NCBI GenBank assembly: GCA_012026795.1
Contig: VEPM01000034.1
Span: forward strand, 1 to 46,985
From: Candidatus Methanoperedens sp.
Lineage (GTDB): Archaea; Halobacteriota; Methanosarcinia; Methanosarcinales; Methanoperedenaceae
DNA length: 46,985 nt
Reading direction: 5' to 3'
The position numbers were made by a program, and so were the translations under genes. The notes under the pieces were generated by a model that worked only from the letters and a program-made list of their open reading frames with translations, was not told the DNA's origin and searched no databases. Below are positions 7,796 to 33,230 of this stretch, piece after piece. Every line of letters begins with the position of its first letter. Position 1 is the stretch's first letter.

Positions 7796-8007
7796 TTGGA
7801 CACCTTTTGGTAGATTATTCCTATAACTGCGATTGAAATTATCTGAAATACGGTTTGTAATTCAAATGGAATAAATCTTCGTGGACCCAGGGCGAGCAGG
7901 TTAACTATCCAGAACAGGAAAAACAGGACATACAAAATAAAAAGCTGGGAAATCTTTCTTGATCTGCTATAAAAATAAACAGCCATTAATATTGTAAAAA
8001 ACAGCAA
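7783..8007 (-). CDS. Small membrane protein, possibly damaged at its N terminus
   Basis: Up to 74 aa from a TTG at 8007, or 67 aa from an ATG at 7986. It has three hydrophobic segments (about residues 1-12, 19-40 and 52-64) and ends in IYQKVSKWTK. Family not recognised. In the same frame a better ATG lies at 8028, but its fourth codon is TAA (8017-8019), so the natural start may have been broken by a point mutation. The first helix begins right at the TTG, which fits a lost N terminus. It overlaps the following winged-helix gene by 13 bp and probably forms a pair with it. The left end of an insertion sequence is about 60 bp upstream, close enough to have displaced its promoter. Confidence 0.5.
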   Translation of the reverse strand: MLFFTILMAVYFYSRSRKISQLFILYVLFFLFWIVNLLALGPRRFIPFELQTVFQIISIAVIGIIYQKVSKWTK

Positions 8008-8120
8008 TACTGGTGGTTACCAATTCATAGTTTTGCCATTTAAACTTAACTGTTTGTTATGCTTGCAGTAGACCAGTGTAACGGTTACAATATGCGATAA
8101 AAACGATCTATAACTATTAT

Positions 8121-8170
8121 TGTTCATTCCCCCAATTTTATTTTAGTCAAAAGTAAGGGGGGAATGAACA
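8121..8170 (+). promoter_or_regulatory. Hairpin covering the transposase ribosome binding site
   Basis: TGTTCATTCCCCC (8121-8133) and its exact complement at 8158-8170 form a perfect 13-bp stem with a 24-nt loop. The right arm contains the only purine-rich site (AAGGGGGG, 8155-8162) and ends at the base before the TTG start at 8171. If transcribed, it would hide the ribosome binding site. Confidence 0.55.
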
Positions 8171-9412
8171 TTGGAATATAATGTAATTAAACACCTAAAA
8201 TCTTATTGGGACAAAATCAAATTCATCGGCTTGACCGATAGAGATGAAGAAGAATTCGTTGATGCGACTTCGCAGAATAGTGTTCGAGCATCTAAATTTC
8301 TAAAAGAGCTTAATCTTGACCCGATAATGCCTGAACTCAACAAATATTATTCAGTCAAAGAAGGGGAAGAGAAGTATCCGAGAAGAGCTATGTTCAAGAC
8401 AATGGTCTGGAGGAAGACCAAGAACATCAAGTACTATACAAGGACCGAAAATCATCTTAACAATCATTCTGATGAGGCTATAGAGCTTGGTTTTAATATC
8501 GACCAGAATGGGAATGTTATAATTCCCGACCATGAAACATTAAGGCATTTTGAAAAAATAAGATTGGGTAATGAAGGAATGGATTCAATAATGGAACTCT
8601 TTTGCATCAAGGTTGTTGGTACAGGAGATAAACTTGGATTAAAAATTGGTGAAAAAACTGGAACGGATAGTACACCAATTCAAGTTCCTAATGATACTAT
8701 CGGAGAATATAATGGATATTATAAGAAAAAGATGGTGAAAACACATATAACCGAGGATTATGACCACAATATCCCTCTGGCTAAAAAGGTGTGTGGAGGC
8801 ACTGACAATGATAACCAATATTTAGAAAGCATGCTCAGGAATACATCTGTTTCAGCTGGAAAGAATATGCGAGAGACGTGGTTTGATGGCGGTTATAATG
8901 GGAATGAAAATATTGCATTAGCCCATGTCGAATTTGGTTTGATATGCCACTATCATATAGACATGGATTGGCGAAGAAACGTTATGTACGAGCATAAATT
9001 CGGTGGAAAAACCTATACCTATACACCAGAACAAGAGATAAATTACCTGTATCGAAAGTACTGGAATGAACTTGATTACAAGAAAGATTCTTCACTTGAA
9101 GATATGATGCAATATCTTGTTAAGAAGGGAATTCATGATCCTGTTGCTATGTATTTTAGGAGTCCATACGTGCAGAAATATGAAGAATGCCCGGATGCTG
9201 TGCTTGATTTGTACCATATGAGAAACCACAGCGAGGGGGTAAACAGTTATATGAAACTCAATCTTGGATTAGAGACGCATATAAATGGGAAAGGCATAAA
9301 GAATATCGACCTTCATGTAACGCAATGCTGTATAGTTCTACTTGCAGTAGCTTTGATAAGATTGCAGCATGGGATAAAAGAAAATCTTTCTTCAGTTGCC
9401 TATTTGACATAA
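8171..9412 (+). CDS. DDE transposase (IS4/IS5-like superfamily)
   Basis: 413 aa with the expected acidic triad: D166 in GTDSTPIQ, D239 in WFDGGYNGNEN, and E355 in RNHSEGVNSYMK. The N-terminal third is an all-helical DNA-binding region with YPRRAMFKTMVWRKTK. It catalyses cut-and-paste movement of its own element. I cannot fix the IS family by eye; IS4, IS5 and IS1182 groups are possible. The only start supported in frame is TTG at 8171, 8 bp after a G-rich site held in a hairpin. The frame is open throughout, so it may be active. Confidence 0.85.
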   Translation: MEYNVIKHLKSYWDKIKFIGLTDRDEEEFVDATSQNSVRASKFLKELNLDPIMPELNKYYSVKEGEEKYPRRAMFKTMVWRKTKNIKYYTRTENHLNNHSDEAIELGFNIDQNGNVIIPDHETLRHFEKIRLGNEGMDSIMELFCIKVVGTGDKLGLKIGEKTGTDSTPIQVPNDTIGEYNGYYKKKMVKTHITEDYDHNIPLAKKVCGGTDNDNQYLESMLRNTSVSAGKNMRETWFDGGYNGNENIALAHVEFGLICHYHIDMDWRRNVMYEHKFGGKTYTYTPEQEINYLYRKYWNELDYKKDSSLEDMMQYLVKKGIHDPVAMYFRSPYVQKYEECPDAVLDLYHMRNHSEGVNSYMKLNLGLETHINGKGIKNIDLHVTQCCIVLLAVALIRLQHGIKENLSSVAYLT

Positions 9413-21696: not shown

Positions 21697-22170
21697 ATGA
21701 AAAATATTGACGGCGTAGTCATAAAAAACCTGAAAGTCGTTCCTGATGAGCGGGGCTGGCTTATGGAAATCCTGCGATGCGATGATAAGATATTTACCAA
21801 ATTCGGGCAGGTTTATATTACAACTGCTTATCCCGGAGTCGTAAAAGGCTGGCATTATCACAAGAAGCAGACTGATAATTTCACATGTGTACATGGCATG
21901 ATGAAAGTCGTCCTGTATGATGGTAGGGAAGAGTCACCAACTTATAAGAATTTGATGGAATTGTTCGCGGGTGAAAAAAACCCGATACTGATCAGTGTTC
22001 CTCCTGGTGTATATCACGGGTTCAAAGCCGTAGGTACGGAGACGGCATATTTCCTGAGTATTCCCACCCTGCCTTATAATTATGAAGAACCTGATGAATA
22101 CAGATTGTCTCCGGATTCTAAGGAAATACCATACGATTGGGGACTTGCACCCGGATTAAAGCACGGTTGA
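21697..22170 (+). CDS. rfbC: dTDP-4-dehydrorhamnose 3,5-epimerase-like cupin
   Basis: 157 aa, shorter than classical RmlC (about 180-190). Cupin with the KGWHYHKKQTDNF stretch, whose first histidine matches the catalytic RGLHxQ site of RmlC, and HGMMKVVLYDGREES and VPPGVYHGFKAV as in the family. It epimerises dTDP-4-keto-6-deoxyglucose at C3 and C5. First gene of a tight four-gene operon with the other dTDP-rhamnose enzymes, which supports the assignment despite the short length. Confidence 0.85.
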   Translation: MKNIDGVVIKNLKVVPDERGWLMEILRCDDKIFTKFGQVYITTAYPGVVKGWHYHKKQTDNFTCVHGMMKVVLYDGREESPTYKNLMELFAGEKNPILISVPPGVYHGFKAVGTETAYFLSIPTLPYNYEEPDEYRLSPDSKEIPYDWGLAPGLKHG

Positions 22171-22183
22171 ATTGGTGAAAAAA

Positions 22184-23140
22184 TTGAAATTACTTATAAC
22201 AGGCGGTCTTGGTTTTATCGGAAGCAACTTTATCCGGCACATGCTTGTAAAATATCCCGGTTACGAGATTATAAATCTTGATAAGCAAACGTATGCAGGA
22301 AATCCTGATAATCTCAAAGATATTGAAAAAAACCCGAACTATACGTTCATCCGCGGTGATATCTGCGATTCAAAAGTAGTGAATAAGCTCATGGAAAAAG
22401 TTGACCATGTAGTACATTTCGCTGCTGAGAGCCATGTTGACCGCTCGATCGAAGATGCATCAGTTTTTGTTAAAACCAATGTCCTTGGCACATTTACGCT
22501 TCTTGATGCCGCATTAAGACACAATATACGGAAATTTATTCATATCTCTACTGACGAGGTATACGGAAGCATAATCCGCGGATCGTTTGTGGAAACTGAC
22601 ATCCTGACTCCTTCAAGTCCTTATTCTTCAAGTAAGGCAGGTTCTGATCTTTTAGCCCGATCTTACTTTATCACTCATAAGCTGCCTGTGGTCATTACCA
22701 GGTGCACCAACAATTTCGGACCATACCAGTATCCTGAGAAGCTTATACCCCTGTTTATAACGAATTTGCTTGAAAACCAAAAAGTTCCGGTCTATGGGAC
22801 AGGAAAAAACGTGCGCGACTGGATATATGTTCTTGATCACTGCAAGGCAGTTGATTTTATACTTCACAAAGGCAGTATAGGGGAGATATACAATATTGGC
22901 GGCGGGGCCGAAAAAACAAATATTGAGATCACAACAAAGATTCTCAAGATGCTAAAAGCTGATGAATCCATGATCGAATATGTTAAAGACCGGCCCGGAC
23001 ATGACCTTCGGTATTCGCTTGATTGTTCAAAACTTACGTTGCTCGGATGGGAGCCTGAGCATGACTTTGATGACGCCCTGGAGCATACTGTAAAATGGTA
23101 CATCGAAAATCGCTGGTGGTGGGAAAAATTAAAACGATGA
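22184..23140 (+). CDS. rfbB: dTDP-glucose 4,6-dehydratase
   Basis: 318 aa, short-chain dehydrogenase fold. The NAD site is GGLGFIG (7-13), and the catalytic residues appear as T123-D124-E125 in STDEVYG and Y147-x3-K151 in YSSSK. NFGPYQYPEKLIPLFI and RDWIYVLDHC are classic RmlB signatures. I use the TTG at 22184 because GGTGA (22174-22178) sits 5 bp upstream and the product then begins (M)KLLITGGLGFIGSNF, as in relatives. GTG 22175 and TTG 22172 are alternatives. It makes dTDP-4-keto-6-deoxyglucose. Confidence 0.94.
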   Translation: MKLLITGGLGFIGSNFIRHMLVKYPGYEIINLDKQTYAGNPDNLKDIEKNPNYTFIRGDICDSKVVNKLMEKVDHVVHFAAESHVDRSIEDASVFVKTNVLGTFTLLDAALRHNIRKFIHISTDEVYGSIIRGSFVETDILTPSSPYSSSKAGSDLLARSYFITHKLPVVITRCTNNFGPYQYPEKLIPLFITNLLENQKVPVYGTGKNVRDWIYVLDHCKAVDFILHKGSIGEIYNIGGGAEKTNIEITTKILKMLKADESMIEYVKDRPGHDLRYSLDCSKLTLLGWEPEHDFDDALEHTVKWYIENRWWWEKLKR

Positions 23141-23934
23141 TCTTTGGCGCTGGCGGGATGCTTGGTATGGAACTGTGCCAGGTATTTCCTGACGCTGTGA
23201 AACTCAAGCATAGCGATATTGATATACGTGATAAAGATATGGTCATTGAATCCATCTCAAGGACTGAACCTGATGTTGTTATCAATGCTGCCGCATATAC
23301 TGCCGTGGATGACTGCGAAGATAATCAGGACCTGGCTTTTGAGGTAAATGGCAAAGCTCCGGGATATATAGCGCAGGGTTGCTCTATCACTGGTGCAAGA
23401 CTCATTCATTACAGTACGGATTATATATTTGACGGCTCTAAAAAGCAGTATATAGAAACCGATGCATCCAATCCGATCAACGTCTATGGTCATTCCAAGC
23501 TTATGGGTGAAAAAAATATAATTGAAAAAACGGATGATTTCAGGATCATAAGGACATCGTGGCTTTTCGGGCTACATGGTAAGAATTTTGTTGATACTAT
23601 GCTAAAACTGTCCGGACAGGTGGATACAGTAAAAGTAGTAAATGACCAGTTCGGTAAACCAACGTATGCGGCTGACCTTGCCAGGAAAACCGAAGAGATC
23701 ATCGGACATCCGCCCGGAATTTACCATATAACAAACGAAGGCGTGTGTTCCTGGTATGAATTCGCATCTGCGATAATAACAAATGTCAAGCCGTGCAGCA
23801 GCAATGAATTCCCGCGTAAGGCCAGGCGTCCGCAATATTCGGTCCTTGTGAACACAAAAACAACTCCGATGCGCCACTGGAGAGATGCGCTTGCTGATTA
23901 TTTAAATAAGCGAAAAAATTTTGAGGTAACATGA
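23137..23934 (+). CDS. rfbD: dTDP-4-dehydrorhamnose reductase
   Basis: 265 aa. NADPH site GAGGMLG (4-10), NAAAYTAVDDCE (50-61), YSTDYIFDG (92-100) and the catalytic pair Y117-x3-K121 in VYGHSKLMGE define RmlD. It reduces the 4-keto group to give dTDP-L-rhamnose. The ATG at 23137 overlaps the rfbB stop codon as ATGA, so I prefer it over longer starts inside rfbB. It in turn overlaps rfbA in the same way. Confidence 0.93.
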   Translation: MIFGAGGMLGMELCQVFPDAVKLKHSDIDIRDKDMVIESISRTEPDVVINAAAYTAVDDCEDNQDLAFEVNGKAPGYIAQGCSITGARLIHYSTDYIFDGSKKQYIETDASNPINVYGHSKLMGEKNIIEKTDDFRIIRTSWLFGLHGKNFVDTMLKLSGQVDTVKVVNDQFGKPTYAADLARKTEEIIGHPPGIYHITNEGVCSWYEFASAIITNVKPCSSNEFPRKARRPQYSVLVNTKTTPMRHWRDALADYLNKRKNFEVT

Positions 23935-24644
23935 AAGGAATAATACTTGCAGGAGGAACAGGCTCCCGCCTGTATCCATTAACCAAGATCACGAATAAAC
24001 ATCTGCTTCCTGTGTATGATAAGCCTATGATATATTATCCACTGCAAACACTTATCGATGCGGGGATAAAGGAGATAATGATCGTCTCCGGCCGGGGTCA
24101 TGCAGGTCATTTTCTTGAACTCCTGGGATCGGGAACCGAATTTGGAGTGCATCTTACTTATGAAATACAGGAAGAAGCGGGAGGAATCGCACAGGCCCTT
24201 GGCCTTGCGCAGGATTTTGCGGATGATGAACCCGTAACGGTAATCCTTGGTGATAATATATTCCAGGATAATGTGAATGAAGCAGTTTCCTCATTCAGGT
24301 CAGGCTCCATGATATTTATTAAGGAAGTGCCCGATGCAAACCGGTTTGGCGTTGCCCGGATCAAAGGAAAAAGCATTATATCGATTGAAGAAAAACCGGC
24401 TGTTCCCAGGTCGAATCTGGCAGTTACAGGATTATATATTTATGATGCAAGTGTTTTTAATATTATCCGGACACTTCGGCCTTCGGGAAGGGGAGAGCTT
24501 GAGATCACGGATGTAAATAATGAATATATCCGGCAGGGTAAAATGAGTTATTCTGTTCTCTCCGGATTCTGGAGCGATGCGGGAACGTTTGAGTCATTGT
24601 TCAGGGCAAGTGAACTGGTACGGAATATGAGAATAGCTGAATAG
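23931..24644 (+). CDS. rfbA: Glucose-1-phosphate thymidylyltransferase, short form
   Basis: 237 aa. The nucleotide-binding start GIILAGGTGSRLYPLTKITN, KHLLPVYDKPMIYYPL, the LGDNIF metal site and IEEKP follow RmlA closely. Classical RmlA has about 290 residues; the missing C-terminal part includes the secondary, allosteric region, so feedback by dTDP-rhamnose may be weaker (inference). ATGA overlap with rfbD. It makes dTDP-glucose, the entry to the rhamnose pathway, and closes the operon. Confidence 0.92.
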   Translation: MKGIILAGGTGSRLYPLTKITNKHLLPVYDKPMIYYPLQTLIDAGIKEIMIVSGRGHAGHFLELLGSGTEFGVHLTYEIQEEAGGIAQALGLAQDFADDEPVTVILGDNIFQDNVNEAVSSFRSGSMIFIKEVPDANRFGVARIKGKSIISIEEKPAVPRSNLAVTGLYIYDASVFNIIRTLRPSGRGELEITDVNNEYIRQGKMSYSVLSGFWSDAGTFESLFRASELVRNMRIAE

Positions 24645-24708: not shown

Positions 24709-24758
24709 TGCGCCGGGGTGCGACCCCAGACCCCACGCGGTCGCGCCGCCGATGGCGG
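24709..24758. other. GC-rich palindromic island
   Basis: About 50 bp of very GC-rich sequence in AT-rich surroundings. It contains GGGGT-GCG-ACCCC (24715-24727) and CCGCC-GAT-GGCGG (24746-24758), both perfect 5-bp palindromes. It lies between the end of rfbA and the broken wzm copy. A remnant of a repeat or an insertion scar are possibilities. Confidence 0.4.
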
Positions 24759-24765
24759 ATATACC

Positions 24766-25110
24766 ATGAAATCAAAGGTTGTTTACTCTCGAATATATGG
24801 TGTTGATTACAAGATTTTAGATTATAAAGAGTTGATAAAAAACCTTGTGATAAGCAACCTCAAAACGAAATACTCCAGTTCATTTATCGGATTTGCCTGG
24901 TCAATGCTGAATCCCCTGATGATGATGCTCGTACTGTATTTTGTATTTAACAATGTCTTTAAATCCACACAGGAGCATTTTGCTCTTTTATTTATTAATC
25001 GGCCTGATTGGCTGGCGGTTTTTTGCACTGGGAACCACATGGCCATGTCCTCTATCGTAGGAAAAGCAATTTTGTCACCAAGATCGGATACCCCGCGAGA
25101 TACTAAATCC
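24766..25110 (+). pseudogene. Truncated, frameshifted 5' copy of the wzm permease gene
   Basis: From ATG 24766 the frame reads MKSKVVYSRIYGVDYKILDY and then follows the intact permease at 27060 closely (KNLVIS.LK.KYSSS.IGFAW, NNVFKSTQEHFA). By eye about nine in ten bases match over 24838-24984. After STQEHFA one base is inserted relative to the intact gene, and a second compensating indel follows near 25038. The alignment stops around 25104, at the equivalent of GAGATATTGA in the intact gene. Only about the first 100 of 253 codons remain, so no working permease can be made. The break coincides with the stop codon of the neighbouring minus-strand glycosyltransferase. Confidence 0.85.
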
Positions 25111-26914
25111 TAATTGAAAAATCCTCCTTGATCAATGTTAGATTAGGATTATAATATGGATCTCCTTTATCAATAACACTACCCCATTTTTCTCTCATGT
25201 ATGAATATTCTTTTAAAAACCTCTTCATCTTTTCAGGAGTATTTTCATATCCTCTGCTCAATGATTCATGGTGATACAGTTCCGCATAAGGGGTATAGGT
25301 TATGAGATATCCTTTTTCCCTTATCTTTAAACAGAGATCAACGTCATTAAAAGCAACTTCAATGTTTTCATCAAATCCTCCGACCTCATAAAATACTTTT
25401 TTCCTTATTAAGACGCATGCTGCCGTCACTGCACTGAGATTATGGATAACATGAGGTCCCTTAAAATACACCATATAAATATTTGATAAATGTTTATAAG
25501 AATGACCTGCGATGCCCGGTTGTTCAGGCCTCCCTCTTATCCCCAAGATAACTCCAGCATGTTGTATCGTTCCGTTAGGATAAAGCAACTTGCAGCCTAC
25601 AGCTCCTACTTCCGGGCGCTGCGCGTGCTCAAGTATGGCTGATAACCAGTCCTCATTTATCACTTCCGTGTCGTTGTTCAAGAACAAAAGGTATTCACCG
25701 TTTGATCTTTGAGCTGCAAAATTATTAATAGCTGAAAAATTAAATGGTTGATCATATTTTAGAACAGTGATGCCTGGTGATCCACTTATCGATTCCAGAT
25801 ATCTAAGCGTACGACTGTCATTGCTATAATTATCGATAATTATTATTTCATAATTTTTATAAGTGGTTTTCTTTCTGATGCTTTCTATACATTTTTTCAA
25901 TGTTTTAAGCTTATTCTTAGTTGGTATGATTACGCTGACCAATGGTTCCCCAATTATATCTCTCTTGATCCTGAAAAAACCAGGAAATCTTCCGGGCAAA
26001 ACCTTCCCACTTATTTTTCTCCGGTCTATAGCCTCCTCAAGCGCTTTATATGCTGAGATATCTGCATAACTCTTGGACTGGTATCTCACTGATGTAGAAC
26101 CGGGGAGTTGTCTCCAATGATACAGGATCTCCGGTATATGAAAAATCTTATCCGTTTGTTCAGTAACCCTGAGAACAAGATCATAGTCCTGGCTTCCTTC
26201 GAATCCTTTTCTAAACCTTCCAATTTCATCTATCAGATTTTTTCTATAAATTCCAAAATGGCAGGTGTACATATTTGATAAAAGCAGGTCTGGAGACCAA
26301 TCAGGTTTAAAATAAGGATTAACCCTCTTATCATCTATTGTTATATTGTCCTCATCGCTGTATATCATATCAGCTTCCGGGTGTTCCTGAAGCAGTTTCA
26401 CTACTTCATACAGGGCATTGACGGAAAGTTCATCATCGTGATCTAAGAAACCAGCGAATTCTCCGGTGGCCAACGATAATGCCTCGTTTGATGCACCTGA
26501 GATTCCCTGGTTTCGGCTGAGGTATTTTACTTTTATCCTGGGGTCTTTTTCGCTGTATCTATCAAGCATTTTTTTAATATAATCACCTTTGGAAGCATCA
26601 TCTACAAGGCATAATTCCCAGTTTTCATAAACCTGATCTATTACAGAATTTATTGCTTTCTCAAGCCAGATGCCATCCACGTTATACACGGGAGTGATTA
26701 TGCTGATCTTGGGGGAATATTTGAAGTTTTTTATTTGAGCCCTCATATTACTCAAATTCTGATCTGTTATTTTATTTTGTTCCAGATAAATCTCATAGTT
26801 TGATGCCAATTTCCCGGAATATTTTAAATAGACTATCGCTTGCCGGATAAATGAACGCAAGCCTTCCTCTCTCAAAATACTACAGCTATTGTTTACTAAT
26901 TGTGTAAATGTCAT
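25103..26914 (-). CDS. Two-domain GT2 glycosyltransferase
   Basis: 603 aa with two GT-A domains in tandem. Domain 1 (about 69-300) has ISIITPVYN, the metal-binding FLDHDDE (157-162) and EGSQDYDL as the base region. Domain 2 (about 325-590) has VSVIIPTKNK, the LFLNNDTEV site (410-417) and FNDVDLCLKI. The first 65 residues are a helical lead. Such proteins may build disaccharide repeats or add two sugars in turn. Its 3' end abuts a broken wzm copy and the intact wzm lies beyond its 5' end, so the gene is bracketed by direct repeats. Complete and open. Confidence 0.88.
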   Translation of the reverse strand: MTFTQLVNNSCSILREEGLRSFIRQAIVYLKYSGKLASNYEIYLEQNKITDQNLSNMRAQIKNFKYSPKISIITPVYNVDGIWLEKAINSVIDQVYENWELCLVDDASKGDYIKKMLDRYSEKDPRIKVKYLSRNQGISGASNEALSLATGEFAGFLDHDDELSVNALYEVVKLLQEHPEADMIYSDEDNITIDDKRVNPYFKPDWSPDLLLSNMYTCHFGIYRKNLIDEIGRFRKGFEGSQDYDLVLRVTEQTDKIFHIPEILYHWRQLPGSTSVRYQSKSYADISAYKALEEAIDRRKISGKVLPGRFPGFFRIKRDIIGEPLVSVIIPTKNKLKTLKKCIESIRKKTTYKNYEIIIIDNYSNDSRTLRYLESISGSPGITVLKYDQPFNFSAINNFAAQRSNGEYLLFLNNDTEVINEDWLSAILEHAQRPEVGAVGCKLLYPNGTIQHAGVILGIRGRPEQPGIAGHSYKHLSNIYMVYFKGPHVIHNLSAVTAACVLIRKKVFYEVGGFDENIEVAFNDVDLCLKIREKGYLITYTPYAELYHHESLSRGYENTPEKMKRFLKEYSYMREKWGSVIDKGDPYYNPNLTLIKEDFSIRI

Positions 26915-27059: not shown

Positions 27060-27821
27060 ATGTACATATTTGAATATAAAGATCTAATAAAAAACCTTGT
27101 AATAAGCGACCTGAAAATGAAATACTCCAGTTCAGTTATTGGATTTGCCTGGTCAATGCTTAATCCTTTGCTGATGATGCTCGTACTGTATTTTGTTTTT
27201 AACAATGTTTTTAAATCCACACAGGAGCATTTTGCCATTTATATATTAATTGGACTCACAGGATGGAGATTTTTTACATTCGGAACAACGGGTGCTATGT
27301 ACTCTATTGTTGGAAAATCAAGTCTTGTAACCAAGATCTTTATACCACGTGAGATATTGACATTCAGTGCAGTAATATCTGTATTTATAAGCTCTCTACT
27401 CGAATTCATGGTATTGATCCCACTCATGGTTATTTTAGGAGTCAAACCTTCAATATTTATTATATTCTTCCCTGTCCTGCATATTCTATTTTTCCTTATA
27501 GTATATGGCATCGGACTGGCTATGGCATCGCTATTTGTATATTATAGAGATGTGAACCAGATATGGGATGTGCTTCTCCAGATGGGCTTTTTCCTTTCAC
27601 CGATCGTTTATCCGCTTTCCCTTATACCTGAGAAGTATATGTTTTATTATATGCTTAACCCTATAACAAGTTTAATTGAAATGTACAGGAACTTGCTTTT
27701 ATCTGGAATCCTGCCAGGACTCATGGATATTGTCCTCGTGTTAATGTTCGGGATTATCCTATTTTCACTTGGCTCATGGTTATTCAGGAAGCTTTCTCCA
27801 GGGTTTGCTGAGGAGATTTGA
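27060..27821 (+). CDS. wzm: ABC-2 type polysaccharide export permease (Wzm/TagG-like)
   Basis: 253 aa with six hydrophobic segments, the size and profile of Wzm. Family wording is clear in the first third (LVISDLKMKYSSSVIGFAWS, LNPLLMMLVLYFVFNNVF) and in the later FFLSPIVYPLSLIPEKYMFYYMLNPI. It forms the membrane channel through which a lipid-linked polysaccharide is exported. The ATPase gene starts directly at the next base after its TGA stop. A broken copy of its 5' part lies 2 kb upstream. Confidence 0.92.
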   Translation: MYIFEYKDLIKNLVISDLKMKYSSSVIGFAWSMLNPLLMMLVLYFVFNNVFKSTQEHFAIYILIGLTGWRFFTFGTTGAMYSIVGKSSLVTKIFIPREILTFSAVISVFISSLLEFMVLIPLMVILGVKPSIFIIFFPVLHILFFLIVYGIGLAMASLFVYYRDVNQIWDVLLQMGFFLSPIVYPLSLIPEKYMFYYMLNPITSLIEMYRNLLLSGILPGLMDIVLVLMFGIILFSLGSWLFRKLSPGFAEEI

Positions 27822-29129
27822 ATGTTCGAGCCACCACTGAAAAAAAAGGAAGATGGAGATGCCATAATAGTTGAAAATGTCAGAAAGCGTTTCAGGATTC
27901 CTCATGAGAAAAGAAATACTCTTTTTGAAAATATCGCTGGTGTAGTAAAGGGCAGGAAGCAGGATTATGATGAATTCTGCGCTCTCCGGGATATAAGTTT
28001 CAGGGTAAAGAAAGGGGAGAAGCTTGGAATCGTGGGTGAAAACGGAAGCGGAAAGAGTACACTCCTAAAGATCATCTCCGGTGTGTTTGTGCCTGATGCC
28101 GGGAATGTGAAAGTTTATGGCAAGGTTGCGCCGTTCCTTGAACTGGGCGTGGGTTTCCAGCCTGAACTCACAGCCGAAGAGAATGTGAGACTATATGGCG
28201 CAGTCATGGGTATGAGCAGGAAAGAGATGGAGAGCAGGTTCGAGGAGATATTTGAATTTGCCGAACTTGAGCGCTTTAAACAGATGAAGCTTAAGAATTT
28301 TTCAAGCGGGATGTATATGCGGCTTGCGTTTGCTACTGCTACTGCGACTAGCCCTGATATTTTACTGATAGACGAAGTACTGGCAGTAGGGGATGAGACT
28401 TTCCAGAGAAAATGTTTTGATAAGATCAATGAGTTCAAGATGAACGGGAAAACAATAGTTCTTGTTACGCATGATCTGGAGATGGTGAAACGGTTATGCG
28501 ATAGTGCTATTTTGCTTGATCATGGAAAGATGACTTCAATTGGGAATAGCCAGATGGTGATCGATGAGTATCACAAGAACATGCGCGAGAAAGCAGAATC
28601 AATTCTTAAGGTACAACAGAAAATAGTAATACAGCAGGAATCAACCCCTATCACTAATGAAGAATCCAGCGTTCCTGAAAAAGCTGAGCTTCCAAAAGAC
28701 AGGTGGGGAACGGGAGAAATTGAGATAACGGAAGTTAAATTCTTTGGCAGGGATAGCGAAGAGAAATATATTTTCAGAACAGGAGAAACCCTTATTGCAA
28801 AAATAAAGTATTCTGCAAAGCAAAGGATCGAAAAACCAGTTTTCGGGGTTGCGATTCACAGGAACGATGGAACCCATATAACAGGACCCAATACGAAATT
28901 CCATAATAATGTGATAGAAAGTATAGAAGGAGACGGGATAGTTGAATATATTGTGGATTCTTTGCCTTTATTAAATGGAACTTATTTGTTTACGGCTGCT
29001 GTGTATGATTTTGCATGTGTTAATGCATATGACTACCACGAAAAAAGATTTACCTTTAAAGTTGAAGATGAGAGTAAAAAAGATTATGGTATATTTTACA
29101 TTCCATGCAGGTGGAAATATGGCGAATAG
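27822..29129 (+). CDS. wzt: ABC polysaccharide export ATPase with C-terminal glycan-recognition domain (Wzt-like)
   Basis: 435 aa. Nucleotide-binding domain: Walker A GENGSGKST (72-80), signature FSSGMYMRL (160-168), Walker B LLIDEVLAV (181-189), H217. A linker of about 50 residues leads to a C-terminal beta domain (about 295-430, WGTGEIEITEVKFFGRDSEE, GVAIHRNDGTHITGPNT) like the Wzt C-terminal domain, which in bacteria binds the modified non-reducing end of the chain before export. That implies the exported chain carries a terminal modification such as methyl or phosphate; the fusion gene downstream encodes candidate enzymes. Partner of the permease upstream. Confidence 0.92.
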   Translation: MFEPPLKKKEDGDAIIVENVRKRFRIPHEKRNTLFENIAGVVKGRKQDYDEFCALRDISFRVKKGEKLGIVGENGSGKSTLLKIISGVFVPDAGNVKVYGKVAPFLELGVGFQPELTAEENVRLYGAVMGMSRKEMESRFEEIFEFAELERFKQMKLKNFSSGMYMRLAFATATATSPDILLIDEVLAVGDETFQRKCFDKINEFKMNGKTIVLVTHDLEMVKRLCDSAILLDHGKMTSIGNSQMVIDEYHKNMREKAESILKVQQKIVIQQESTPITNEESSVPEKAELPKDRWGTGEIEITEVKFFGRDSEEKYIFRTGETLIAKIKYSAKQRIEKPVFGVAIHRNDGTHITGPNTKFHNNVIESIEGDGIVEYIVDSLPLLNGTYLFTAAVYDFACVNAYDYHEKRFTFKVEDESKKDYGIFYIPCRWKYGE

Positions 29130-29204: not shown

Positions 29205-32200
29205 ATGAGACCAAAAAAGATAATCCTGATAATTATAGATTCACTAAGAAAGGATCATTTAGGCTGTTATGGTTATAAGAGAAATACAAGCCCGAATATA
29301 GATACTCTTGCAAAAAGCGGGATACTTTTTAAATATGCTTTTTCAGCATGTCCAAATACAGTTCCTTCGATAGCATCTGTCCTGACTTCAAAGTATCCGT
29401 CAAATCATTCGATGGGTTTTGATCCAGATAAAAAGCTAGATCCAGAGGTAGATACAACTTTAGCCACTGTTTTGAACGAGAATGAATACAGGACTGCCGC
29501 TTTTCTAAGTAGCAGTGGGCTTACTGGCATAAACTCAGGTTTTGATATATTCGATGAAGGAAAGGGAAAAAGAGACTGTGCAGGGACAAATGAACAGGTT
29601 TTAAAATGGCTTGATGAAAATCACATGCAGGATTTTTTCCTGTTAGTTCATTATTCTGATTTGCAAGGGCCATATTTAAATTCAGGGTCTTATAAAAATA
29701 CATTCGTAGAGGATGAATTTTATGGAAATGCTGAGCAGATAAAGAACATCTCAGACAAAGACCCCACCTTCAACAGTATTCCCCGATACCAGATACTTAA
29801 TCCTGTCACAGATGCTGATAATATTCCTGTCAGTTTTGAAAGTGATGTGAGATATTACAAAGCGCAATATGACGGATGCATACGTAACATAGATGAAAAT
29901 ATCCAAAAACTCATTGAAAAATTAAAAGTCCTCAAGATTTTTGATGACTCACTGATAATCATCACTTCAGATCACGGTGTGGCTTTTGGTGAAAATAATT
30001 TATTCTTAGATTATGGATTATCTGTGACCTTGGACCAGATAGAAGTCCCGTTGGTATTGAAATTTCATAAAGGTTGGTATATAAAGAGCGGTATCTTAGA
30101 TATTCCAGTAAGCACCCTTGATATCATGCTAACTATACTCTCTTTATGCAATAATGATCTGAGTTTCATGCTTGAGGGGTATTCTCTCAAAGAAGTCCTT
30201 GAAGGTAAAGAAGATAATATTTTGAAAGAAAGAACAATAATGAGTGAAAATGAGCGTCAATTTGCTTTAATTAGTCCAAATGGATTGATGGAGCTTAAGA
30301 AAAAAGATGTTCCAACCAGCAATTATCATCCATATTTAGCAGCTTTACTTGAATCGCTAAACGGGAAGAAATACTATTGGGATTCAGGGAATGAGTATGT
30401 GCTGGCGATCCCATTTGATCAATATCAGAGATATAAAATAATATCTGATATAATAAACAAATTCAGAACCGACAAAGAAATATTTAAAATACTTGATGTT
30501 GGAGCCGGTTTTGAAAACAATCTAAAAAAGTTTCTTCCGTATGATGAAATTTTTTTATTAGATAAAAACTATCCAAAAGAGTATAATCAAAAAAGCAACT
30601 ACATAATTGGAGACATAACAAAAATAGGGCTTAACAAAAGTTATGATTTTATTATTTCTATTGATGCTTATGAGCATATATCCCCTATTTTTCGAGAAAA
30701 GTTTATCAATAAACTTATTGATCCTTCAAAAATCGCTACAATAATAGCTGCACCATTTGATACCCCTGGGGTTAGAGAATATGAAGTTTCTGCAAATGAG
30801 GTGTATAAAATCAGCCATGGGATGGAGTATAAGTGGCTTCATGAACATATCCAGAATGGGTTACCATCTCTCCCTTTTACTCTTGAATTAATTAAAAAAT
30901 CGAAGTACTCCTATACTGTGATACCCAATGGATATTTGCTACGATGGTTTGAAATGGTCTCGACTTATATGCTTACAGAAGGTATGCCTGAATTTACAAA
31001 GAGCATGGAAGCACTTTATGAATTCTACAATAAAAATTTTTACGCTTATGATAATTTAAATCCTGCCTATCGACATGTAATTGTAGTAAATAAAAGTAAT
31101 AATGAACCTGATTTTTCTGAAATTTATGCGAAGAATATTAAAATGGATGAGAATTTTACTATTAAATATGAATCTTTGCAGTCTATTCTTAAAAAAATCA
31201 GAGAACTTTCCAGCAATCTTAGGTACAAAGAATTGCTTGAGAAAAGAAGTGAGCTTACCGAACTCACAGGTGTACTGCAAGCCAAAGAAATTGAAATTAA
31301 TGAAATGAAAAGTACATCAAATTCAAAAGATTCTTTAATAAAAGTAAAAGATAATGAAATTATAGAACTCAAAGATGCTATGAATGTGAAAGCTTCTGAA
31401 ATTATAGAACTCAATAATACCCTGCAACAGATTCATATGAGTATAACCTGGAAATCAGTAATGAAATTTCAGAAAATCATTGATTTCTTTCTTCCGAATA
31501 ATACGCGGCGACGGCATTGTTATAATCTTGGGTTAAATAGCATTAATATAGTCGTAAACGAAGGATGGAGAAGCCTATGGATTGAATTTAAGGAAAAATT
31601 AAAAGGATGGGTTCCTTTTAAACATAGGATAAAAATAAATAATGTTTTATTAAAACTGAATGATCCGACAATTGATATAATTATTCCTGTTTATAACCAT
31701 GGAAAGTATTTGCAGGAATGCATTGAAAGTGCAATCAATCAAACATATTCTAATATCAATATAATAATTGTAGACGATTATTCAAGCGAATCTTTAGTTT
31801 TTGAAGTGTTAAAAAAATACGAAACGAATCCAAAAATAAAAATAGATTACCACAAAACAAATAAAGGTATTTCCGAAACGTTAAATGATGGAATTATTAT
31901 GTCATCTGGAAATTATCTAGCATTTTTGGATTGTGATGATATAATTGTTCCCAATGCAATAGAAAAAGTGGTAGATTTCATTAAGCACAACACTGACAAA
32001 TATTTTATTTATACGGATAGAATAAATATCAACCAAAGTGGAGAAACAGTTGAATACTTAAGTTTCAAAAATCGGGGAATGAATGCCAAAACAGAATTAT
32101 TATTGGGAATGTATACCTCCCATCTGAAAGTTATCAATAGAGAATGCTTTTCGAAAGTTGGTTTATTCGCGCCTAAATATGATTCCTCGCAGGATTATGA

Positions 32201-33230
32201 TATAGCACTAAGAATCTCAGAATATTTTGATTTTGGATATATTAATGATTATTTATACAAGCATCGAGTTCATGAAGAACAGTGTACACAAAGAAACCTC
32301 ACAAAACAAGAAAATCTTGCAATATTAATTAAAGACGCTGCAATCCAGAGAAGAAAGATATTACATGGCGATATTAGAAGATCAATATCAATTGTTATGC
32401 TGACTTTTAATAGACTTTATGATACAAAAAAATCTATTGAGTCCATTTTTAATTATACAAAATTGCCATTCGAGCTAATTATATTAGATAACAATTCAGA
32501 TAGCGATGTAAGAGAATATCTGAAGAAGTTGGAAAAAAAGAAATCCAATGTAAAAATTATTTTCGAGGATACAAATTTGGGGTGTGGCAGAGGAAGAAAA
32601 AAGGCTGTTAAATTCGCTAAAGGAAATTATATAGTCACGTTAGATAATGACATCTGCGTAACTCCTCTATGGTTAGAAAATTTCATCATAAGAATAGAAG
32701 ATGATAAGAAAATTGCTGCTGCGTGCGCAAAGGTAGTTTTTCCTGACGGAAAGATCCAATATAATGGAGGAAAACTGGAAATTAAAAACGATTTTATTGA
32801 ATTTTCTTTGCTTGATTCAAATAAAAATAAAAATGATTTATCAACCTTCAGGGAATTAGATTGCGATTGGATACCCGGGGGAGCGATGATAATAAAAAGG
32901 GAATTTCTTGAAAAAGTTGAATACCGGGAGGATATTGAAGGAGCATATGAAGATAACGACTATTCGTTACAAATAAAGAATATCGGAGGACGGGTAGTTA
33001 ATTGCCCATTATCTGAAGTAGTTCATTATCATTTGTATTTTGGTAAAAATATTTCAAAAGAAAAGAGATACATGAATGAAAGGTACGCAAATAAAAAAAT
33101 GATGAATGCATTTCTTGCTTTTTATAAATATAATAAGCTTATAATTAAAGATAAAGACTTATATAAAATATTGAATATATCAGATAAATCTGATGCTGAA
33201 ATCCGCAAACTTGTAACTACTCAAGCTTAG
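29205..33230 (+). CDS. Four-module fusion: alkaline-phosphatase-superfamily + methyltransferase + coiled coil + two GT2 domains
   Basis: 1341 aa. (1) Residues 1-405: sulfatase/phosphotransferase fold, with metal ligand D12 in IILIIIDSLRKDHLG, T52 in NTVPS at the nucleophile site and D256-H257 in TSDHG. (2) About 405-625: class I SAM methyltransferase-like domain, ILDVGAGFENN (428) and ISIDAYEH. (3) About 655-725: charged coiled coil. (4) About 820-1010: GT2 with IDIIIPVYNHGKYL, FLDCDD (907) and SSQDYDIA. (5) About 1060-1300: second GT2, SIVMLTFNRLYDTKKS, LDNDI (~1145) and EDNDYSLQI. No membrane segment is evident. It starts 75 bp after wzt and may be co-transcribed. Suggested role: capping or decoration of the exported glycan, matching the Wzt recognition domain (inference). 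Confidence 0.85.
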   Translation: MRPKKIILIIIDSLRKDHLGCYGYKRNTSPNIDTLAKSGILFKYAFSACPNTVPSIASVLTSKYPSNHSMGFDPDKKLDPEVDTTLATVLNENEYRTAAFLSSSGLTGINSGFDIFDEGKGKRDCAGTNEQVLKWLDENHMQDFFLLVHYSDLQGPYLNSGSYKNTFVEDEFYGNAEQIKNISDKDPTFNSIPRYQILNPVTDADNIPVSFESDVRYYKAQYDGCIRNIDENIQKLIEKLKVLKIFDDSLIIITSDHGVAFGENNLFLDYGLSVTLDQIEVPLVLKFHKGWYIKSGILDIPVSTLDIMLTILSLCNNDLSFMLEGYSLKEVLEGKEDNILKERTIMSENERQFALISPNGLMELKKKDVPTSNYHPYLAALLESLNGKKYYWDSGNEYVLAIPFDQYQRYKIISDIINKFRTDKEIFKILDVGAGFENNLKKFLPYDEIFLLDKNYPKEYNQKSNYIIGDITKIGLNKSYDFIISIDAYEHISPIFREKFINKLIDPSKIATIIAAPFDTPGVREYEVSANEVYKISHGMEYKWLHEHIQNGLPSLPFTLELIKKSKYSYTVIPNGYLLRWFEMVSTYMLTEGMPEFTKSMEALYEFYNKNFYAYDNLNPAYRHVIVVNKSNNEPDFSEIYAKNIKMDENFTIKYESLQSILKKIRELSSNLRYKELLEKRSELTELTGVLQAKEIEINEMKSTSNSKDSLIKVKDNEIIELKDAMNVKASEIIELNNTLQQIHMSITWKSVMKFQKIIDFFLPNNTRRRHCYNLGLNSINIVVNEGWRSLWIEFKEKLKGWVPFKHRIKINNVLLKLNDPTIDIIIPVYNHGKYLQECIESAINQTYSNINIIIVDDYSSESLVFEVLKKYETNPKIKIDYHKTNKGISETLNDGIIMSSGNYLAFLDCDDIIVPNAIEKVVDFIKHNTDKYFIYTDRININQSGETVEYLSFKNRGMNAKTELLLGMYTSHLKVINRECFSKVGLFAPKYDSSQDYDIALRISEYFDFGYINDYLYKHRVHEEQCTQRNLTKQENLAILIKDAAIQRRKILHGDIRRSISIVMLTFNRLYDTKKSIESIFNYTKLPFELIILDNNSDSDVREYLKKLEKKKSNVKIIFEDTNLGCGRGRKKAVKFAKGNYIVTLDNDICVTPLWLENFIIRIEDDKKIAAACAKVVFPDGKIQYNGGKLEIKNDFIEFSLLDSNKNKNDLSTFRELDCDWIPGGAMIIKREFLEKVEYREDIEGAYEDNDYSLQIKNIGGRVVNCPLSEVVHYHLYFGKNISKEKRYMNERYANKKMMNAFLAFYKYNKLIIKDKDLYKILNISDKSDAEIRKLVTTQA

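Follow-up and report, generated by a model that had tools for sequence, protein, structure and literature searches.

A Methanoperedens protein combining an AP-superfamily domain, a methyltransferase, a coiled coil and two glycosyltransferases downstream of Wzm and Wzt

The window analyzed here, a stretch of 46,985 nucleotides, lies on contig 34 (VEPM01000034.1) of the 3.6 Mb genome of Candidatus Methanoperedens sp. (GCA_012026795.1). On its forward strand, the dTDP-L-rhamnose pathway genes rmlC, rmlB, rmlD and rmlA (21697 to 24644) precede wzm (27060 to 27821) and wzt (27822 to 29129), which are located directly upstream of a large fusion gene. The rml genes were identified by NCBIfam and Pfam matches, with rmlD scoring above the NCBIfam cutoff (299 bits) and the other genes yielding rmlA-type, rmlB-type (GDP_Man_Dehyd/Epimerase) and rmlC-type (dTDP_sugar_isom) matches. 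Wzm is an ABC-2 permease (Pfam ABC2_membrane, E 2.5e-15), Wzt an ABC ATPase (ABC_tran, E 7.9e-25) with a Wzt_C carbohydrate-binding domain at residues 292 to 426 (E 8.9e-27), which bears out an earlier note on this DNA that had placed a Wzt with a C-terminal domain of this kind in front of the fusion gene. The opposite strand encodes a stand-alone tandem-GT2 protein of 603 amino acids (25103 to 26914, Pfam), a relative of the GT2-GT2 half of the fusion protein (28.7% identity to its residues 816 to 1341).

The fusion gene, also on the forward strand, is a single open frame from the ATG at 29205 to the stop at 33230 and encodes 1341 amino acids with no internal stop. Pfam, a family profile and AF2 confirmed the order of its parts: a Thr-type domain of the alkaline phosphatase (AP) superfamily with a sulfatase fold, a class I methyltransferase (MT), a helix of 94 residues and two GT2 domains. 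The four enzyme domains and the coiled coil that had been read from the letters alone are thus present in one frame.

The MT domain comprises residues 401 to 640 (alignment spanning 395 to 662; 30387 to 31190). Taken alone, the stretch 401 to 640 gave no significant Pfam or phmmer match, the best sub-threshold matches being Methyltransf_23 (E 0.014) and a PDB entry (E 0.071). By contrast, 23 of the 26 sequences homologous to precisely this stretch matched Methyltransf_11 and Methyltransf_25 in Pfam, and a profile of the 26-member family, named after its FDQYQRYK motif, matched solved SAM methyltransferases among the PDB chains (E 3.6e-6). The AF2 model of the domain (pLDDT 93.7) retrieved SAM methyltransferases by Foldseek, including RebM, whose structure has been named as close to that of WbdD (PMC3482155). 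Judged by the family profile, the Pfam matches of its members and the model, the region is a real class I SAM methyltransferase, so that the MT suspected near residues 405 to 640 held up when it was checked at family level. WbdD itself was absent from the PDB-chain matches of the profile at E 0.01, and homology to WbdD at the sequence level was rejected, as none was detected in this search against all PDB chains.

Directly behind the MT, the AF2 model shows one continuous helix (residues 651 to 744; 31155 to 31436), a putative molecular ruler. A heptad-score caller delimited a segment from 637 to 750, but is not selective enough by itself (it scores 48% of long ORFs as positive), and AF2 was used instead. 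No kinase domain was found between the MT and this helix, neither as a Pfam match nor in the model. Residues 745 to 812 (31437 to 31640) contain short helices (747 to 762, 768 to 786 and 788 to 800 in the AF2 model), a local maximum of the hydrophobic moment at 774 to 791 and an LPxxTxRRxxYDLG-type motif which is common to four related loci (L026, L027, L029 and L114); it is possible that these helices contact the membrane or the polymerase. Longer DNA tandem repeats occur between MT and GT, or between MT and C-terminus, in nine relatives; in eight of these genes they have periods of 21, 42, 63, 84 or 105 nt, all multiples of the 21 nt that encode one heptad. No tandem repeat was found in the coiled-coil stretch of the window gene. 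Repeats of this kind would fit a coiled coil that can change its length while keeping its register, according to the ruler model for WbdD, an MT-kinase-coiled-coil protein in which changes of coiled-coil length shift the chain length (PMC3482155, PMC5082667).

The two GT2 domains were detected by Pfam Glycos_transf_2 (E 2.2e-55 for the protein). The first (residues 825 to 985; 31677 to 32159) matched chondroitin synthase in the PDB (E 1.3e-33), the second (approximately residues 1062 to 1290; 32388 to 33074) was also recognized by NCBIfam. Both DxD motifs, at 909 and 1147, are intact and second acidic motifs are located at 997 and, as ED, at 1249.

The earlier note knew of no described protein with this domain order. 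The view that nothing similar had been described is not supported, since two characterized bacterial proteins are of the same kind and only the AP domain is new (PMC2943079, PMC3898925, PMC11231755). WsaE of the Geobacillus stearothermophilus S-layer glycan has an MT at its N-terminus, followed by two rhamnosyltransferase domains (PMC2943079, PMC3898925), is encoded beside wzm/wzt and methylates the chain-end rhamnose to give a 2-O-methyl cap (PMC2943079). By published description, it shares with the window protein the N-terminal MT and two GT domains in one chain as well as wzm/wzt and rml neighbours, and its methyl cap ends chain growth, which is also proposed for the window protein. On the other hand, WsaE is bacterial and no AP domain has been described for it, whereas the window protein is archaeal and has one. 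ORF6 of Klebsiella pneumoniae O7 has the order MT-kinase-CBM-coiled-coil-GT2-GT2 and was shown by assay to polymerize and to terminate (PMC11231755). It also resembles the window protein, by published description, in having MT, coiled coil and two C-terminal GT2 domains in one chain with wzm/wzt and rml genes nearby. It differs in that an atypical kinase and a CBM separate its MT from the coiled coil, where the window MT runs straight into the helix, and in that it lacks an N-terminal AP domain. WbdD of Escherichia coli O9a/O8 shares with the window protein an MT and a coiled coil (a ruler in WbdD, a putative one here) that operate together with a Wzt_C reader, but possesses a eukaryote-like kinase in O9a, is accompanied by a separate polymerase, WbdA, and has an MT without detectable sequence similarity (PMC3482155, PMC5082667). 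WbbB of K. pneumoniae O12 likewise unites terminator, ruler and polymerase in one polypeptide but terminates with Kdo through a glycosyltransferase and not with a methyl group (cited in PMC11231755). The MT-coiled-coil-GT2-GT2 protein is hence an already described kind, and the N-terminal AP domain, for which no precedent in terminators of this kind was met in the papers retrieved, is the new part.

When species genomes were scanned with only the MT domain as query, 23 loci were obtained, 28 distinct ones together with the window and its relatives in the genus. The MT gene is the next recognized gene after wzt in 22 of the 28, at a distance of 1.25 kb in one locus (L030) and much less in the remaining Wzt-linked ones, which span Paenibacillus, Clostridia, Sulfurimonas, Planctomycetota, Chloroflexota and Methanoperedens; many loci of the family are accompanied by rml genes. 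No adjacent Wzt was found for six MT relatives (L032, L039, L043, L046, L115, L117). In the plasmid records searched, the MT gave no match and the AP domain retrieved generic sulfatases only. The family is widespread in bacteria as well as in other archaea and is therefore no archaeal speciality. Its members occur as MT-coiled-coil proteins, as MT-coiled-coil-GT2-GT2 proteins and, in Nitrospirota-type genomes without Wzt, as carbamoyltransferase-MT-TPR proteins. The order MT-coiled-coil-GT2-GT2 is present in L028, L029, L036, L037, L049 and L114 to L116, the last three from other archaea of the phylum. In L033 to L035, L042 and L052, the tandem GT2 is encoded by the next gene, demonstrating that fused and split states coexist.

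Within the genus, two further proteins begin with AP-MT-coiled-coil and continue with different GT modules, the 2281-residue protein of L026 (AP-MT-CC-WbsX-GT4-GT2-GT4) and the 1456-residue protein of L027 (AP-MT-CC-GT2-GT4). Identities are 62 to 64% in the AP domain and 69 to 71% in the MT. L026 is syntenic with the window (75 to 92% identity for the rml genes, 73% for the nucleotide-binding domain of Wzt); its GT modules have been replaced while the block AP-MT-coiled-coil and, at 82% identity, the C-domain of Wzt are retained, a pattern that is expected if cap maker and cap reader stay together while the chemistry of the chain changes. Other Wzt loci of the genus (L087, L090) encode coiled-coil-GT proteins with different N-terminal MTs. 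Thus, these proteins appear to swap their N-terminal cap domain, coiled coil and GT modules block by block.

The AP-superfamily domain (residues 1 to 405; 29205 to 30419) was recognized by Pfam (Sulfatase, PF00884, at 5 to 314, E 2.7e-38) and has S1 sulfatases as its closest solved folds in Foldseek (E 4.7e-18). It shares with these enzymes (7lha, 7oz8) the fold of residues 1 to 340 and the DHG metal motif. Where they carry the Cys or Ser of CxPSR, however, the alignment revealed a threonine, with Ile in place of the Arg. The formylglycine motif C/S-x-P-x-R is absent from the domain, which reads T52-V-P-S-I at this position; a formylglycine nucleophile can therefore not form and a true sulfatase was rejected. 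The predicted active site consists of the nucleophile T52 (NTVPS) and the metal residues D12, D256 and H257. In a census of 29 relatives, with the window's own copy (L102) among the loci, threonine is the nucleophile in 26, and D12, D256 and H257 are found in 28, 29 and 28, respectively. Histidine occupies position 154 in 27 relatives and position 270 in 25, while the window has Q154 and Y270, and the single rows with these residues are its own copy. One metal site of the superfamily (D12, the Thr nucleophile and D256-H257) is hence present, whereas the second-site histidines (the DxH and HG columns) that nearly all relatives possess are absent. L027 retains both histidines, L026 has lost one, with Asn in the H270 column. 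The phosphatase-superfamily domain named in the earlier note is thus present, but it is of the Thr type, not a sulfatase, and has lost two conserved histidines, which the note had missed. The window copy may have little or no catalytic activity left.

Tentatively, the domain may serve as a pseudoenzyme or binding module, bringing in the chain end or a further member of the complex. Such a role would agree with the graded loss of the histidines (two in the window, one in L026, none in L027) under continuing constraint, as dN is well below dS in the AP domain as in the MT (dN/dS about 0.1, with dS near saturation), by which measure the domain is under purifying selection. The retention of T52, D12, D256 and H257 and the full residue set of L027 speak against this role.

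Somewhat unlikely is a hydrolase that removes a phosphate or phosphoester from the growing chain, the acceptor or the donor as an editing step before methylation. Fold and Thr nucleophile would suit such an enzyme, and stand-alone AP relatives occur commonly across further genomes of the phylum, some of them among glycosyltransferase genes. The closest relative outside, a 398-residue protein of a Bacillota genome (L126, 38.5% identity), also lies in a GT cluster, beside PAPS_reduct and methyltransferase genes. Yet such a hydrolase has no known substrate, and the second-site histidines of the window copy are lost.

More doubtful is an active phosphotransferase in place of the WbdD/O7 kinase, which would transfer phosphate or a phospho-alcohol to the chain end via T52, followed by methylation to a methyl-phosphate-type cap. 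Some Thr-nucleophile members of the AP superfamily, EptA and LtaS, are phosphotransferases. These precedents, the prevalence of the Thr nucleophile, the retained D12, D256 and H257, the purifying selection (with its near-saturated dS) and the position next to the MT within a terminator favour the idea, while the sulfatase-like fold and the loss of H154 and H270, the latter also replaced in L026, speak against it. So does the distribution of Wzt types. The Wzt C-domains of the window, L026, L028 and L030 are 72 to 84% identical, though L028 and L030 lack the AP domain, and that of the AP-bearing L027 pairs with AP-less L029 at 88%. The Wzt_C type does not track the presence of AP, and the exported end seems to be AP-independent. 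Barring recombination that has separated the two, the end read by Wzt is probably not set by the AP domain, which weakens the proposal that this domain makes the Wzt_C-read epitope. Less probable still is a new class of terminators in which an AP phosphotransferase replaces the WbdD/O7 kinase, the cap in archaea is a phospho-methyl group or phosphoester and rulers are tuned by heptad-multiple DNA repeats.

That the protein results from an assembly or annotation fusion of separate genes can practically be dismissed: AP domain and MT are each found alone elsewhere, but the frame has no stop, the junction (FDQYQRYK directly behind KKYYWDSG.EY) is conserved in three genomes at 62 to 71% identity, and the recurrence of the AP-MT-coiled-coil fusion in L026 and L027 led to the rejection of a chimera. 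No AP-MT fusion outside the genus was detected in 393 genomes of the phylum, and no bacterial one in 299 Bacillota genomes (E 1e-20) or in five bacterial genomes searched via the loci; among these genomes, the fusion was found only in Methanoperedens.

Considering domains and context, from which the working mode is deduced, it is likely that the window protein unites in one chain the polymerase, the ruler and the terminator of a surface glycan exported by an ABC transporter, similar to WsaE and O7 ORF6. The suggestion of a chain terminator or ruler with two GT2 domains is in so far supported by context and homology, with MT and coiled coil tied to Wzm and Wzt_C, even though it is neither particular to archaea nor of an undescribed kind. 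The two C-terminal GT2 modules would extend a lipid-linked chain at the membrane by sugar residues, probably L-rhamnose donated by dTDP-Rha, and the exported glycan is probably a rhamnan. The coiled coil would keep the MT at a distance of roughly 14 nm (94 residues x 1.5 A per residue) so that only sufficiently long chains could reach it. Methylation of the non-reducing end would then stop growth, and Wzt_C would read the capped end for export through Wzm. Judged by its fold and nucleophile, the AP domain may either act on phospho-esters at the cap or close to it, or bind the end of the chain. However, WsaE reportedly methylates in vitro irrespective of chain length (PMC2943079), and ruler action is therefore unproven even for this protein. 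With coiled coils whose DNA repeats are whole heptads, the wider family makes the ruler idea directly testable through natural length variants.

In the papers searched, control of glycan length was not described for anaerobic methane-oxidizing archaea. Judging by this locus, the cap-and-ruler logic known from O-antigens and S-layer glycans of bacteria, with cap maker, ruler, polymerase and cap reader, extends to these organisms, and the loci of the genus combine different GT modules with a conserved terminator. This scheme, in which a kinase has been the only non-methyl cap chemistry described beside an MT so far, does not account for the added AP domain.

At the Wzt-linked locus L114, which encodes a methyltransferase-coiled coil-GT2-GT2 protein, the Wzt (7846-8589) comprises just 247 amino acids and is devoid of the C-terminal carbohydrate-binding domain. 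Therefore, a different reader may recognize the cap at this locus. Another Wzt locus of Methanoperedens (L084, 6955-9681) encodes a 908-aa protein in which a GT2 domain is fused to the rhamnosyltransferase domains WsaF_N and WsaF_C, and this fusion constitutes an additional tie to the S-layer glycan system of Geobacillus.

In Nitrospirota-type genomes, a carbamoyltransferase, a methyltransferase belonging to the family of the window protein and TPR repeats follow each other in one chain (1192 aa at L039, 2676-6251; 1206 aa at L043, 8273-11890). No Wzt was found near these genes at either locus. The closest stand-alone gene for the phosphatase/sulfatase-fold domain lies in a Bacillota glycan cluster (L126, 8309-10873), where it forms a row with a PAPS_reduct-family gene and a methyltransferase gene.

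Decayed wzt pieces arranged in tandem were detected at L097 (1-12768; contig 154 of the same-genus genome G013), where four copies are spaced by 2.3-3.0 kb, at L029 (12610-14813) and at L098. Together with a wzm fragment of 131 aa in the window (24718-25113), they suggest that the transporter genes recombined repeatedly.

The coiled-coil linkers of the terminators at L026 (692-722 aa), L028 (314-381 aa), L036, L038, L087, L100, L116 and L117 contain DNA tandem repeats with periods of 21, 42, 63, 84 or 105 nt. These periods are heptad multiples, and the copies of some repeats are 100% identical, suggesting that the length of the putative ruler changed recently in the repeat-bearing terminators.
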